From the NCBI RefSeq assembly GCF_006152065.1, contig NZ_VDFW01000005.1, positions 1 through 64,000 of the forward strand: 64,000 nucleotides of DNA, written 5' to 3'. Every line of letters begins with the position of its first letter. Position 1 is the stretch's first letter. The notes beneath the pieces are model-generated. The model ran no database searches. It saw only the letters and a program-made list of their open reading frames with translations, and was not told the origin of the DNA. Made by a program: the position numbers and the translations under genes. The DNA comes from Amycolatopsis alkalitolerans. Its GTDB lineage: Bacteria > Actinomycetota > Actinomycetes > Mycobacteriales > Pseudonocardiaceae. Of this stretch, positions 3,819 through 59,541 are shown piece by piece.

Positions 3819-4364
3819 ATGAGCATCGAAATCGCCAACGAGTCCGGGATGGCGGTCGACGAGACGTCCATCGTCTCCGCCGCCCGGTTCGCACTCGACC
3901 GCATGGAGGTCAGCCCGCTCGCCGAGCTTTCGGTGGTGCTGGTGACCCTGGACGTGATGTCGGACCTGCACGTGCGCTGGATGGACCTGCCGGGGCCCAC
4001 CGACGTGATGGCCTTCCCGATGGACGAGCTGCAGGCCGGTCACCGGCCGGACGCCGGTGACGTGTCGCCGGCGCTGCTCGGTGACATCGTGCTGTGCCCG
4101 CCGTTCGCGAAGGACCAGGCCCGCACGGCCGGCCACTCGCTGATGGACGAGCTGCACCTGCTCACCGTGCACGGCGTGCTGCACCTGCTCGGCTACGACC
4201 ACGCCGAGCCGGCCGAAGAGCGCGAGATGTTCGGGCTGCAGAAGCGGATCCTGGCCGACTTCAAGGCCGCCATGTCGGCGGCGAAGCGGCGGGACGCGCA
4301 GCGCACCAACGACGACCGCCTGCTGGGGGCGGCGGGTCTGGACGCGACCGCCGAAGACGGGTAA
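3819..4364 (+). CDS. ybeY: rRNA maturation endoribonuclease YbeY
   Basis: Single-strand-specific metallo-endoribonuclease that helps 16S rRNA 3'-end maturation and ribosome quality control. The zinc-binding signature H-x3-H-x5-H is intact as [11 protein letters not shown] (His118, His122, His128). The 181 residues include a longer C-terminal tail after the motif than E. coli YbeY, as in other actinobacteria. It lies 6 bp after phoH and 3 bp before the CorC-type gene, so it belongs to one operon. The preceding TGACTGATC offers only a weak ribosome site, suggesting coupling to phoH translation. Confidence 0.95.
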
Positions 4365-4367
4365 CCG

Positions 4368-5693
4368 ATGGCGAGCTCCGCCTCCCTGCTGGTGATCGCC
4401 GTCGCGCTGGTCCTGCTCGGCGGGGTGTTCGCCGCGGCCGACGCGGCGATCAGCACCGTGTCCCCGGCGCGGGTCGACGGCCTGATCCGGATGGGCCGCC
4501 CCGGCGCGCGCCAGCTCGCGGCCGTCGTCGCCGAACGCCGCCGCCATATCAACCTGCTGCTCCTGCTGCGGATGATCTGCGAACTGACCGCGACCGTGCT
4601 GGTCACCGTCGTGGTCCTGCGCTGGATCCACCCGGAATGGCTCGCCCTCGTGGTCACGGCGGTGGTGATGGTGGTGGTCGCGTACGTGATCATCGGCGTC
4701 GGCCCGCGCACGATCGGCCGCCAGCACCCGTACCGCGTCGGCGCCGTCGTGGCCGGGCCGGTGCGCGTGCTCGGCACCGTGCTGGGGCCGCTGTCGCGAT
4801 TGCTGATCCTCGTCGGCAACGCCATCACGCCTGGTCAGGGCTTCCGCGAAGGGCCGTTCAGCTCGGAGATCGAGCTGCGCGAGCTGGTCGACCTGGCGCA
4901 GGAACGCGGGGTCGTGGAGCCGGCCGAGCGCGAGATGATCCACTCGGTGTTCGAACTCGGGGACACCGTGGCCCGCGAGGTCATGGTGCCGCGCACCGAG
5001 ATCGTCTGGATCGAGCAGGACAAGACGGTGCGGCAGGCACTGGCACTGTCACTGCGCACCGGGTTCACCCGGATCCCGGTGATCGACGAATCCGTGGACG
5101 ACATCGCGGGCGTGGTGAACCTGAAGGACCTCGTGCGCGCGTCGCTGGACGAGGGGTCGGCCAAGCCGGTCGCGGAACTGATGTACCCGGCGACCTTCGT
5201 GCCCGACTCGAAGCGGCTCGACGATCTGCTGCGCGACATGCAGCTTTCGCACAACCACATGGCGATCGCGGTCGACGAGTACGGCGGTACCGCGGGCCTG
5301 CTGACGATCGAGGACATCCTGGAGGAGATCGTCGGTGAGATCACCGACGAGTCGGATCAGGAGGAGCGGCCCCCGGTCGAGCGTCTCGGGGACGGCTCGG
5401 TCCGTGTCTCGGCGCGGTTGAGCGTCGACGATCTGGGTGAACTGTTCGGGATCGACCTGTCCGATCACGACGTGGAGACCGTCGGCGGGCTGCTCGCGCA
5501 GCGGCTCGGGCGGGTGCCTCTGCCGGGCGCGGAGGCCGAGGTCGACGGGCTGCACCTGCGCGCCGAAGGCGGTAAGGACCGCCGCGGCCGGATGCGCATC
5601 ACGACGGTGGTGGCGGGCGCCGTGGACGGTGCGGCGGAACGTAAGCTGCACAACGGTGACAAGGAACGCGACGGGAGCATTGAGGATGTCTGA
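4368..5693 (+). CDS. Hemolysin C/CorC family membrane protein with DUF21 and CBS domains
   Basis: A 441-residue protein with three domains in order: an N-terminal DUF21 membrane domain with three to four hydrophobic segments (about residues 1-140), a CBS-domain pair starting near [14 protein letters not shown], and a C-terminal CorC_HlyC domain (about 340-425). Family members take part in divalent cation (Mg2+/Co2+) transport or resistance, and CBS pairs bind adenine nucleotides. It sits in the phoH-ybeY-corC-cdd-like-era series conserved in actinobacteria. Its stop overlaps the next start by 8 bp. No single transported ion can be assigned. Confidence 0.9.
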
Positions 5694-6021
5694 GCTTGAG
5701 CCGGAAGACGAGAAGATCGTGATTCTCGCCCGATCGGCCCGGGCGCGCACCCAGGCGGCCGAAGGCGCCGCGGTGCGGGACACCGACGGCCGCACGTACG
5801 CGGCAACCACGGTGGCGCTGCCTTCGTTCGGGATCACCGCGTTGCAGGCCGCGATCGCCGCGGCGGTGTCGAGCGGCGCGGAGGGGTTGGAGGCCGCGGC
5901 CGTGGTGACGGGCGGCGGTTCGGTCGACGACGCTTCGGTGCGGGCGGTGCGCGATCTCGCCGCCGAGGCCCCGATCTTCCGCGCGGACGCCAAGGGCGCG
6001 GTCCAGGAAGTCTTGCGGTGA
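5686..6021 (+). CDS. Cytidine deaminase-like protein lacking the catalytic zinc site
   Basis: A 111-residue protein aligned by eye with the core of homotetrameric cytidine deaminases: an N-terminal helix, the [12 protein letters not shown] hairpin, then a helix and a strand (AAAVVT). The catalytic residues are absent. The position of the C/H-A-E motif reads TALQAA, and where PCxxC is expected the sequence reads [10 protein letters not shown]. It should therefore not bind zinc or deaminate. The same position between corC and era is occupied by an equivalent gene in mycobacteria. Start ATG 5686 overlaps the corC stop, and its own stop overlaps era by 4 bp (GTGA). A structural or nucleoside-sensing role is possible but unproven. 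Confidence 0.8.
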
Positions 6022-38472: not shown

Positions 38473-38622
38473 GTATTGGGCAAGCGATCCGCAGGTCAGC
38501 CTTGGCGTGGCCGCGTTGATTGGAGACGTGTTCTACCAGGAGTTTCAAGATCCTAATCGAAAAAGTAAACAGGTATCACCCAAGGTCTATCTTTAGTTAA
38601 CGCCGTATGCTTCAATCTGCTC

Positions 38623-38636: not shown

Positions 38637-38665
38637 CGACGATGTGGCATCCTCGGGAGGTAGCC

Positions 38666-39892
38666 GTGGCAACACCGATGATCCCTGCCGGCTTCGATTT
38701 CACCGACCCCGATCTGTACGCGCAACGACTCCCGCTCGAGGAGTTCGCTGAGCTGCGGCGGACGGCTCCGGTGTGGTGGAACGCCCAACCGCACAACATC
38801 GCCGGCTTCGGCGACGACGGCTTCTGGGTCGTGACGCGCCTGGAGGACGTCAAGGCGGTCTCGCGTGACAGCGACCTGTTCTCCTCGCAGGAAAAGCTGG
38901 CGATCATCCGTTTCGACGAGACCATGACGCCGGAGGGGATGGACGCCAACCGGCTCGTGTTGCTCAACATGGACGCGCCGCAGCACACGAAGCTGCGCCG
39001 GATCGTCTCGAAGGGGTTCACCCCGCGCGCGATCAACAAGCTCGAGGACACCTTGCGCGAGCGCGCCGCGCGGATCGTGCGCGAGGCCAGGCAGAAGGGG
39101 TCCGGCGACTTCGTCCAGGAGGTCGCCTGCGAGCTCCCGCTGCAGGCGATCGCCGAGCTGATCGGCATCCCCCAGGAGGATCGCGGCAAGATCTTCGAGT
39201 GGTCCAACCAGATGATCGGCTACGACGATCCCGAGTACGAGGTCGAGCCGATGGCCGCGTCGGCCGAACTGGTCGGCTACGCGTGGAACATGGCCGAGGA
39301 CCGCCGCCGGTGCCCGATGGACGACATCGTCACCAAGCTCGTCCACGCCGACGTCGACGGCGAGTCACTCAACTCCGAGGAGTTCGGGTTCTTCGTCATC
39401 CTGCTTTCCGTGGCGGGCAACGAAACCACGCGGAACGCCATCACGCACGGGATGAAGGCGTTCCTCGACCACCCGGACCAGTGGGAGATCTACAAGGAGC
39501 AGCGACCGAAGACCGCGCCGGACGAGATCGTCCGCTGGGGGACGCCGGTCGTGGCGTTCCAGCGCACCGCGATGGCCGACACGGAACTGGGCGGCCAGCA
39601 GATCAAGCGCGGCGACCGGGTGGGCCTGTTCTACAGCTCGGCGAACTTCGACCCGGAGGTGTTCGACCATCCGGAGAGGTTCGATGTGCTGCGCGCCGAC
39701 AACCCGCACGTCGGTTTCGGCGGCACCGGCTCGCACTACTGCATCGGCGCCAACCTCGCTCGCCTCGAGATCGACCTGATCTTCAACGCGATCGCGGACG
39801 AGATGCCGGACATCCGTGAGGTCTCGCCGCCGGAGCGCCTGCGTTCCGGCTGGCTCAACGGCATCAAGCACTACCAGGTCGCCTACTCCTGA
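38666..39892 (+). CDS. cyp125: Steroid C26-monooxygenase CYP125
   Basis: Cytochrome P450 of 408 residues with strong similarity to mycobacterial CYP125, which oxidises the terminal methyl (C26/C27) of cholesterol and cholest-4-en-3-one. Heme-binding loop FGGTGSHYCIG with the Cys ligand, I-helix AGNETTRN and K-helix ExxR as DEIVRW are intact. The end RSGWLNGIKHYQV is typical of CYP125. GTG 38666 is 5 nt after GGGAGG; an ATG at 38642 lacks a ribosome site. Followed by a strong terminator. Confidence 0.95.
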   Translation: MATPMIPAGFDFTDPDLYAQRLPLEEFAELRRTAPVWWNAQPHNIAGFGDDGFWVVTRLEDVKAVSRDSDLFSSQEKLAIIRFDETMTPEGMDANRLVLLNMDAPQHTKLRRIVSKGFTPRAINKLEDTLRERAARIVREARQKGSGDFVQEVACELPLQAIAELIGIPQEDRGKIFEWSNQMIGYDDPEYEVEPMAASAELVGYAWNMAEDRRRCPMDDIVTKLVHADVDGESLNSEEFGFFVILLSVAGNETTRNAITHGMKAFLDHPDQWEIYKEQRPKTAPDEIVRWGTPVVAFQRTAMADTELGGQQIKRGDRVGLFYSSANFDPEVFDHPERFDVLRADNPHVGFGGTGSHYCIGANLARLEIDLIFNAIADEMPDIREVSPPERLRSGWLNGIKHYQVAYS

Positions 39893-39902
39893 GCGGAACC
39901 AC

Positions 39903-39937
39903 AAAGGAGGCCCACCCCGGCGGGGTGGGCCTCCTTT
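39903..39937 (+). terminator. Strong intrinsic terminator after cyp125
   Basis: A perfect 16-bp stem (AAAGGAGGCCCACCCC and its complement) with a GGC loop, 11 bp after the cyp125 stop; the descending arm ends in CCTTT. Symmetric A/T flanks allow it to act in both directions. Confidence 0.85.
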
Positions 39938-39949
39938 CGTCGGTTGTGG

Positions 39950-40181
39950 CTAGTGTCTCGTGACCTTGTTGTCTTTACGCGCGGGCGTGTTTGCCTGCCA
40001 GGGCACCGAGTTGGCCCCTGGCGTCGCCGAATTGGCTCGGGGCGTCACCGAGTTGGCTGACCGCTGCGGCCGTGGGCAAACTCAGCGACCGGACCAGCAA
40101 ACTCAGTGACGCAGCGGGCAAACTCACCGACCGCACGGGCAAACACGGCAACGTAAACCGGACAGGATCACGCAGCACTAG
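39950..40181. repeat. 232-bp mirror-symmetric element with 21-bp periodic repeats
   Basis: The ends are inverted repeats: the left reads CTAGTGTCTCGTGACCTTG, the right on the other strand CTAGTGCTGCGTGATCCTG. Both continue to TTTACG and GTGTTTGCC. Inside the left half CCGAGTTGGC-type units recur at 40006, 40027 and 40048. In the right half GCAAACTC-type units recur at 40076, 40097, 40118 and 40139 in the opposite orientation. All steps are exactly 21 bp. The right CTAG contains the ltp3 stop codon. No protein of normal composition is encoded. Confidence 0.75.
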
Positions 40182-41344
40182 GCGGCCGGTTTCTCCGAGC
40201 CGACTACCCACATCGAGAAGTACTGCGAACCGCCGCCGTAGGCGTGTCCCAGCGCGATGCGGGCGCCGTCGACCTGGTAGTCGCCCGCGCGGCCCATCAC
40301 CTGTTTCGCGGCTTCCGAGAACCGCAACATGCCCGACGCCCCAATGGGATTCGACGAGAGCACGCCGCCGGAGGCGTTCACCGGCAGCCGTCCACCGAGG
40401 GCCGTCTCACCGGCTTCCGTCAGCTTCCAGCCCTCGCCCTCGGGCATGAAGCCCAGGTTCTCCAGCCACATCGGCTCGAACCACGAGAACGGCACGTAGA
40501 TCTCCGCGGTGTCCACTTGCGACAGCGGATCGGTGATCCCGGCCTCGGCCCACAGCGCCGCCGCCGCGTCACGACCCGCCTGCGGGCTCACCTGGTCACG
40601 GCCGGAGAACGTGGTCGGCTCGGTGCGCATCGCCGTCGCGTGGATCCACGCGGCACCACCGGAAACCGCGTCGCCCGCGGCCTCGTCCCCGAGGACCATG
40701 GCGCAGGCGCCGTCGGAGGACGGGCACGTCTCGTCGTAGCGGATCGGATCCCACAGCATCTGCGAAGCCTGCACGGACTCGACGGTGATGTCGCTCTGCC
40801 GCAGGTGCGCGTGCGGGTTCAGCGCGCCGTTACGCCGGTCCTTCGCCGCGACGATCGCGCCGACGTGCTCCGGCGCCCCGGACCGGCGGATGTAGGACCG
40901 CACATGCGGCGCGAAGTACCCGCCCGCACCGGCGCCGACCGGCATCTGGAACGGCGGCATGATCGACAGCGCCCACATCGCGTTCGATTCCGACTGCTTC
41001 TCGAACGCGACCGTGAGCACCCGGCGGTGCACACCGGCCTGCACGAGCGAAGCCGCGACAAGCGCCGTCGATCCCCCGACAGAACCGGCGGTGTGCACGC
41101 GCAGCAGCGGTTTTCCCGTCGCACCAAGGGAATCGGCGAGGAACAGTTCCGGCATCATGACGCCCTCGAACAGGTCGGGCGCCTTGCCGATCACCACCGC
41201 GTCGATGTCCGGCCACTCGACCTGCGCGTCCGCCATGGCGCGATCGATCGCCTCACGCAGCAGCCCGGGCATTGACACGTCGGTCCGCTTGGCACGGTGG
41301 TGGGTCTGCCCGGTGCCGAGTACCGCGGCGAGTTTCTTGCCCAT
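40178..41344 (-). CDS. ltp3: Thiolase-like lipid-transfer protein Ltp3
   Basis: A 388-residue thiolase-fold protein very close to mycobacterial Ltp3 (Rv3523), with KLAAVLGTGQTHHRAKRTDV, GKAPDLFEGVMMPELF and LGHAYGGGSQYFSMWVVG. Members of this SCP-x-like group act in sterol side-chain degradation as thiolases or retro-aldolases, often with a DUF35 partner, which is present in this operon. ATG 41344 directly abuts the stop of ltp4. The stop lies within the end of the 232-bp repeat element. Confidence 0.93.
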   Translation of the reverse strand: MGKKLAAVLGTGQTHHRAKRTDVSMPGLLREAIDRAMADAQVEWPDIDAVVIGKAPDLFEGVMMPELFLADSLGATGKPLLRVHTAGSVGGSTALVAASLVQAGVHRRVLTVAFEKQSESNAMWALSIMPPFQMPVGAGAGGYFAPHVRSYIRRSGAPEHVGAIVAAKDRRNGALNPHAHLRQSDITVESVQASQMLWDPIRYDETCPSSDGACAMVLGDEAAGDAVSGGAAWIHATAMRTEPTTFSGRDQVSPQAGRDAAAALWAEAGITDPLSQVDTAEIYVPFSWFEPMWLENLGFMPEGEGWKLTEAGETALGGRLPVNASGGVLSSNPIGASGMLRFSEAAKQVMGRAGDYQVDGARIALGHAYGGGSQYFSMWVVGSEKPAA

Positions 41345-59214: not shown

Positions 59215-59541
59215 GTGCACAACTCGTCCCGCGACCCCAGGGACGAGGCCGACCCGGTGCTCATCACCGAGGCCGCGCCCTCCTACGACCAGGAACACGC
59301 CGCCCGCAAACGCAAGTACATGACGATGATGGCGATGCGGTTCCCGTGCCTCATCCTGGCCGGCATCTTCTACCACACGTGGTGGCTCGCGCTGCTGTTC
59401 GTGGTGATCTCGGTGCCGCTGCCGTGGATCGCGGTGCTGATCGCGAACGACCGCCCGCCCCGGAAGGCCGAAGAAGTCAGCCGTTACCAGCGCGAGGCCC
59501 GGCAGCTCGAGCACCGCGAACACCGCATCATCGAAGGCTAG
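59215..59541 (+). CDS. DUF3099 membrane protein
   Basis: A 108-residue protein with the DUF3099 core DPVLITEAAPSYDQEHAARK and two transmembrane helices (about 45-80). It ends with a charged tail (REARQLEHREHRIIEG). Found near sigB in many actinobacteria; function unknown. GTG 59215 is 5 nt after AGGAGGTGG, which decides the start. The stop shares CTAG with the kinase gene. Confidence 0.88.
   Translation: MHNSSRDPRDEADPVLITEAAPSYDQEHAARKRKYMTMMAMRFPCLILAGIFYHTWWLALLFVVISVPLPWIAVLIANDRPPRKAEEVSRYQREARQLEHREHRIIEG

Follow-up and report, generated by a model that had tools for sequence, protein, structure and literature searches.

Tandem sites of about 21 bp that lie on one helical face are familiar from plasmid iterons and centromere-like arrays, where they form a single origin or partition site, unlike the ladders at many gene ends described below. 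Elements of the IS630 type insert at TA, as stated in PMC2170065, whose reference list includes Tenzen & Ohtsubo (1991) on TA in 5'-CTAG-3'. REP and BIME sequences are, according to excerpts of PMC3733652, dispersed and intergenic, lie mostly downstream of genes in convergent or co-directional gaps, and often occur in opposite orientations. The TraB protein of Streptomyces binds to clustered 8-bp repeats (clt/TRS), and clt-like clusters are present on the chromosome as well (excerpts of PMC4170104, PMC5133688 and PMC12857230); the clt sequences vary between plasmids and mix direct with inverted repeats (PMC3583192). Literature searches for the repeat analyzed here or for its letters, judged on titles and the openings of abstracts, found no description. 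We know of no described bacterial repeat class that works as a protein-read phased ladder at the ends of transcription units, and to our knowledge the ending of transcription between convergent genes is poorly understood in high-GC actinomycetes.

The 232-bp element and its IS630-type ends

The analyzed stretch of 64,000 nucleotides (the window) contains a 232-bp element at positions 39950–40181, situated between the convergent genes cyp125 (cytochrome P450-like, 38642–39892, plus strand) and ltp3 (lipid-transfer/thiolase-like, 40178–41344, minus strand). Both names are those of the initial annotation, given from the sequence alone, and the genes are placed here by the ORF list. Sequence reading and repeat finders confirmed the element as initially annotated, with its CTAGTG...CACTAG ends and 21-bp steps, and at least 40 copies place it far beyond chance. 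A CTAG with the target TA inside marks the left end (39950–39953; sequence and copy alignment), and a second CTAG the right end (40178–40181; ORF list and junction comparison). Terminal inverted repeats, defined by the copy alignment and matching the ends of IS630-type insertion sequences, extend over 39952–39979 (plus strand) and 40152–40179 (minus strand); the terminal sequence reads CTAGTGTCTCGTGACCTTGTTGTCTTTACG on the left and, as reverse complement, CTAGTGCTGCGTGATCCTGTCCGGTTTACG on the right.

The interior consists of two opposed arms of four 8-bp motif units each, every step being 21 bp. In the left arm (39987–40057, plus strand) the units at 39987, 40008, 40029 and 40050 read GTGTTTGC, GAGTTGGC, GAATTGGC and GAGTTGGC, and in the right arm (40076–40146, minus strand) the inverted units start at 40076, 40097, 40118 and 40139, with the GTG type outermost in both arms. 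The arms are separated by a centre (40058–40075) that sets the last plus motif start 26 bp from the first minus motif start. Thus the four right-hand units stand as annotated, but the left arm, for which three had been counted, contains a fourth, the outer GTGTTTGCC. Outside of the element, on the cyp125 side, the repeat finder detected a terminator-like hairpin with a perfect 17-bp stem (39903–39937), and a similar hairpin is present at the element-free junction of Amycolatopsis sp. GM8 (G006). An Rfam scan at E <= 1 gave no match within 39950–40181; its sole weak row lies at 38500–38585.

BLAST against the element's own genome, a draft assembly of 6.78 Mb in 84 contigs, revealed at least 40 separate copies after merging of overlapping rows, at least 28 of which were matched across 200 bp or more; the copy count is a lower bound, since 40 out of 77 first-look candidates were scored. 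The first thirty copies were aligned together with their flanks. CTAG is found on the left in 24 of these and on the right in 26, with 21 copies having it on both sides; the remaining nine have one end or both mutated, truncated or lost at a contig end. Beyond CTAG the sequences are, by eye, unrelated between copies, and on both sides insertion falls at the TA within CTAG, which makes the target duplication either TA or CTAG, the two being indistinguishable here. A partner at least 97% identical exists for 24 of the thirty. Several contigs terminate inside element copies, as is expected of recent repeats in a draft assembly.

At one locus, the cyp125–ltp3 junction, orthologous empty sites were compared: the element is absent in Amycolatopsis sp. 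GM8 and in Amycolatopsis acidicola K81G1 (G008). The CTA of the right CTAG is the TAG stop of ltp3 on the minus strand. When the flanks in the window are rejoined in silico at a single CTAG, this TAG is kept, so the stop was not created by the element, and the earlier proposal that the element had captured it has to be given up.

The end pattern CTAGTGTNNNGTGATCNTGT, allowing up to one mismatch, is present in three of the 19 genus genomes, namely the element's own genome, A. acidicola K81G1, which carries ends of the element's type, and, once, a third genome (G018), where the ends flank the C-terminal part of a transposase matching Pfam DDE_3. The absence of further copies from related genomes, named in the initial annotation as grounds for refutation, is not borne out, since a congener does carry copies. 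Family-wide, a related end pattern was found in 22 of 386 genomes. Inspection of 13 of these loci identified nine elements with CTAG at both ends, while at the other four the search patterns did not find both ends. The nine represent eight distinct insertion sequences, which come from two other genera and five genomes; their length is 1167–1183 bp (about 1.18 kb), and each carries a transposase of 370–385 amino acids. Both transposases tested from this set passed the NCBIfam IS630 cut-off.

Since its terminal repeats match those of IS630-family insertion sequences of related genera, the 232-bp element is very probably a non-autonomous MITE belonging to the IS630 (Tc1/mariner) type, with TA in CTAG as its insertion site. 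The notion of a mobile repeat in the initial annotation is borne out by these ends, by CTAG and by the copy number, whereas its statement that the element resembles no MITE with known transposase ends is not. Like IS630/Tc1-mariner MITEs, the element is short, lacks a transposase gene, carries IS630 terminal repeats, sits at TA in CTAG and occurs in many copies. Unlike them, its interior shows no visible remnant of an insertion sequence and is instead an ordered 21-bp ladder, found elsewhere without the ends as well. A query with a 98-residue transposase fragment at E <= 1e-15 found no related IS630 transposase in the draft assemblies of its own genome (G000) or of A. acidicola K81G1, a non-exhaustive search of its own genome found no transposase gene flanked by such ends, and viral contigs searched with the transposase fragment gave no confirmed match. 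Mobilization of the element would have occurred in trans, through an IS630-family transposase recognizing ends like CTAGTGTCTCGTGATYYTGT..TTTAC.

Arrays of the 21-bp unit at gene ends

Judging by sequence, the ladder in the interior is not specific to the MITE: congeners that lack the terminal repeats have arrays of this 21-bp unit at gene ends. Searching for an exact triple of GWGTTKGC at 21-bp steps returned matches in ten of the 19 genus genomes, including the window's own, and, across the Pseudonocardiaceae, in 32 of 390 genomes, representing seven of 46 genera. The number of triple matches reaches 338 in one genome and, by our count, is at least ten in 18 genomes; a reversed control pattern gave three matches in total over the 390 family genomes. 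Absence of the triple from the other 358 genomes implies that other motifs serve its function or that these genomes can do without it. In a class-wide sample of 394 genomes the triple occurred in the window's own genome and in none of the 393 others. Among the matches listed, the genera are Amycolatopsis, Crossiella, Saccharomonospora, Prauserella and Pseudonocardia; 45 of 111 stretches among the matches listed come from outside the Pseudonocardiaceae and were excluded from the analysis. Phage DNA collections gave no match.

The arrays described in detail are loci returned by the exact-triple searches, in which arrays of other motifs are under-counted. They were deduplicated by sequence, and arrays with MITE ends were handled apart; the class without terminal repeats may include some degenerate MITE copies. 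With gene calls from a simple caller of our own, and loci shorter than 900 bp dropped from the placement count, the 166 arrays without terminal repeats fall into convergent gaps 88 times, tandem gaps 45 times and divergent gaps eight times, with 24 at a locus edge and one in a called gene. For 48 MITE copies the corresponding numbers are 20, 20 and five, with two at an edge and one inside a gene, and for array-free gaps of the same loci 35 convergent, 215 tandem and 140 divergent. Because a circular chromosome has as many convergent as divergent gene pairs, 88 versus eight is a strong bias against any background. Flanking gene ends are 3' ends in 228 of 280 cases. Computed without a distance cut, arrays lie at a median of 36.5 bp from stop codons (n = 242) versus 169.5 bp from start codons (n = 64), and 150 of the 242 stops versus four of the 64 starts lie within 50 bp of an array. 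Some arrays occupy the entire stop-to-stop space between convergent genes. Among the genes neighbouring arrays, no regulator recurs across many genomes.

A separate hairpin of at least 8 bp is found in three of 82 convergent gaps with arrays, in 12 of 41 array-free gaps and in five of 20 gaps with the MITE; when gaps with no more than 100 bp of other sequence are considered, the numbers are one of 48 with arrays versus eight of 20 array-free, a comparison confounded in part by residual length. In one genome (G144) the strand of the arrays seems biased by chromosome half, with nine plus and five minus versus three plus and 11 minus counted by eye, a pattern that may stem from the direction of the genes or from polarity in the sites themselves.

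In its placement the ladder is similar to the REP and BIME sequences as excerpted from PMC3733652. In contrast to these, the ladder has a rigid 21-bp step, ordered units and no stem-loop within the unit: the mean fold energy of 200 sampled single units (-4.07 versus -4.03 for shuffled units) indicates no stem beyond chance. RAYT (Y1_Tnp, PF01797) was found in one of the 19 genus genomes (G011), itself without GWGTTKGC arrays, and in none of the ladder-rich ones. A RAYT-driven REP origin was rejected on account of the stemless units and the missing RAYT in ladder-rich genomes of the genus.

Helical spacing, unit order and predicted protein binding

Spacing and phasing were analyzed in arrays without terminal repeats. 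Within-strand spacings of no more than 70 bp number 651 and comprise 614 multiples of 21, nine other multiples of three and 28 that fall in neither class. This spacing is partly ascertained by the triple search, and a recount that drops one search triple per array left 294 of 331 multiples of 21 and nine of 331 other multiples of three; in arms opposite the search triple, 93 of 103 spacings are multiples of 21. The spacers between motifs are just about 54–62% alike within a genome, although the 21-bp step is retained. In a motif-free scan of 562 gaps, lag 21 appeared in seven array-free gaps and other lags between 12 and 40 in at most two each; two of the seven (L193 and L255) resemble other repeats by eye.

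The two arms are also set in helical register. Tail-to-tail arms are phased at 10.5 bp (R 0.64, P about 5e-6, 30 unique centres, best period 10.8), and after collapse this phasing persists in the window's genus (P 0.0006) as well as in other genera (P 0.006). For head-to-head arms the phasing (R 0.48, P about 2e-4, 37 unique centres, best period 10.4) becomes weaker once each combination of genome and distance is counted a single time (n = 27, R 0.39, P 0.017). After this collapse, head-to-head arms of other genera are phased (n = 9, P 0.0001), but those of the window's genus are not (n = 18, R 0.23, P 0.38). The 26-bp centre of the window element lies off the main phase.

In addition, the rungs are ordered. 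Read in motif direction, GTG precedes GAG in 65 arms and follows it in 11 among 88 arms with both types, compared with 33 ± 4 arms expected from shuffling, and in MITE arms the ratio is 41 to 0. The order is not followed in four genomes, with five versus five arms in A. acidicola K81G1, two versus three in G209 and zero versus one each in G180 and G171.

Among the options of the initial annotation, a DNA-architecture site accounts best for the interior, given the phasing of spacings and arms. Multiples of 21, phased arms and non-complementary spacers favour a protein on one face of the DNA over a peptide or an RNA hairpin, and we hold such a protein ladder, with its predicted binding, to be probable with moderate confidence. 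Each rung, GWGTTKGC followed by 13 variable bases, would be the putative site of a sequence-specific DNA-binding protein. With rungs two helical turns apart and opposed arms mostly at steps of about 10.5 bp, the proteins would line one DNA face, where they could bind cooperatively as a rod. Between convergent genes, sometimes from stop to stop, such a rod might act as a two-way boundary that halts or slows RNA polymerase. This role as terminator or insulator, suggested by placement, is proposed tentatively; more doubtful is the wider proposition that a minority of Pseudonocardiaceae may mark many transcription-unit ends with ladders that have a grammar and a dedicated, fast-evolving protein and serve as two-way terminators or boundaries, one of which was hijacked by a transposon. 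The interior of the window element would be a captured copy of a ladder that a minority of the family carries independently at the 3' ends of genes, and the IS630 ends would have turned this one ladder into a spreading element in its own genome. Taken as a whole, an IS630-type MITE carrying a captured ladder of protein sites is an explanation that we consider reasonably likely. The ladders yield a testable claim, namely that they should be coated by a protein specific for their sequence. Should they prove to be boundaries, they might be used as parts in antibiotic-producing hosts, and the MITE shows a transposon route by which a structural DNA site can spread genome-wide.

A role as RNA-hairpin terminator or stabilizer has been proposed for many REP and BIME sequences, and the arrays, located past stop codons, might likewise form a long 3'-end hairpin acting as intrinsic two-way terminator or stabilizer. 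The fold check suggested in the initial annotation gave -122.8 kcal/mol and a z-score of -3.67 for 251 nt around the element, two-armed arrays fold far better than shuffled sequences (median z -4.5 and -4.7), and convergent gaps with two arms reach a mean z of -5.6 (n = 40). But array-free convergent gaps fold better than shuffled as well (mean z -3.2), one-armed arrays hardly fold, 98 of the 166 arrays without terminal repeats have one orientation alone, and in 18 of 24 convergent gaps with one arm not even an approximate unit of opposite orientation is present. Complementarity of the arm spacers is not kept, being no higher than with other arrays of the same genome (0.519 versus 0.539); in-register arm similarity exceeds that of shuffled arms slightly (0.560 versus 0.549, a difference of 0.011, P 0.02). 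Moreover, phasing of the arm junction at about 10.5 bp is a property of DNA, and no U-tract was seen on reading the end of the element. The long RNA hairpin of the initial annotation, possible by its folding energy, is thus disfavoured by spacers and orientation, and we rate it unlikely. The same annotation had explained the 21-bp step by the reading frame, since 21 is a multiple of three and ORFs on both strands span the element, which would make the repeats coding for in-frame heptad peptides. A frame constraint would tolerate 18 and 24, however, and with other multiples of three at nine of 651 spacings the step is not frame-driven; besides, two of 214 arrays lie inside a called gene and many lie between convergent stops. 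Coding heptads were rejected on the avoidance of other multiples of three, and we give them next to no credence.

Turnover of the ladders and related motifs

The same junction is arrayed in different species with differing units in five genome pairs: G006/G180, at what we take to be TatB–Mrp-like genes, G000/G008, G013/G001, G009/G013 and G010/G001. At 59538–59541 in the window, convergent stops overlap in CTAG and no array is present, and the orthologous junctions of two congeners carry 21-bp arrays of about 0.4 kb (G010, L079 1407–1811; G001, L356 2393–2767). Between loci L354 of G001 and L362 of G012 the flanks are about 96% identical, and by eye the arrays count about four versus about 19 units, from which the copy number of ladder units appears to change very fast. 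Spacer identity is 0.618 within an array, 0.538 between arrays of one genome and 0.433 between genomes, and at the orthologous loci compared the units show no consistent tendency to be nearer to those of the orthologue than to others in the same genome.

Such turnover, with units more similar within than between genomes and unit numbers very variable in near relatives, would also be produced by selfish repeats that spread via recombination or a mobilizer and survive where they do least harm, at gene 3' ends. The patchy distribution agrees with this, and the MITE form is plainly selfish. Yet selfish spread predicts neither the strict 21-bp step with few indels nor the helical phasing of arms and the GTG-before-GAG order, and as an account of the ladders we consider it rather unlikely. 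By analogy with clt/TRS, the rungs might instead be loading sites read by a TraB/FtsK-type translocase of chromosome-mobilizing conjugative elements. The ladders resemble clt/TRS as clustered short direct repeats of one 8-bp motif, scattered over the chromosome and varying between genomes, and a role as translocase sites would make them relevant to chromosome transfer among antibiotic-producing strains. They differ in motif, which is unlike the pSVH1 consensus GACCCGGA, in their exact 21-bp phase, in their position at gene 3' ends and in numbering up to 338 triple matches per genome. Furthermore, four queries, the window element and three large arrays, gave no match in 72,556 plasmids, and translocation leaves the preference for convergent gene ends unexplained, so that loading sites seem improbable. 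The protein ladder on one DNA face remains the preferred reading of the interior.

The GWGTTKGC motif is probably one variant of a broader class, to judge from arrays of other sequence. A second 21-bp motif, GAGTYCGAC, forms two-armed arrays in Amycolatopsis sp. GM8 (L121 5814–5990 and L162 4752–4961), and near 5846–5917 of locus L132 in the same genome its units stand in phase with GTGTTTGC units. The cyp125–ltp3 junction of G011 (L266 2670–3188) contains a two-armed 21-bp array of the motif GAACTCGC/GTGTGCCC beside a further repeat, GGCAAGCCGCGGCGATCGTC, whose units recur about every 20 bp.

This array of G011 sits at the same junction as the MITE of the window's own genome. At locus L193 of A. 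acidicola (3999–4766), a gap of 767 bp is made up of degenerate TTCGCGCCGCCCGGG repeats, which are unrelated to the ladder by eye. In G156, a convergent gap (L303 1479–1932) is full of 21-bp units like GAGTTCGCCGTCGAGTCACGC, a further variant.
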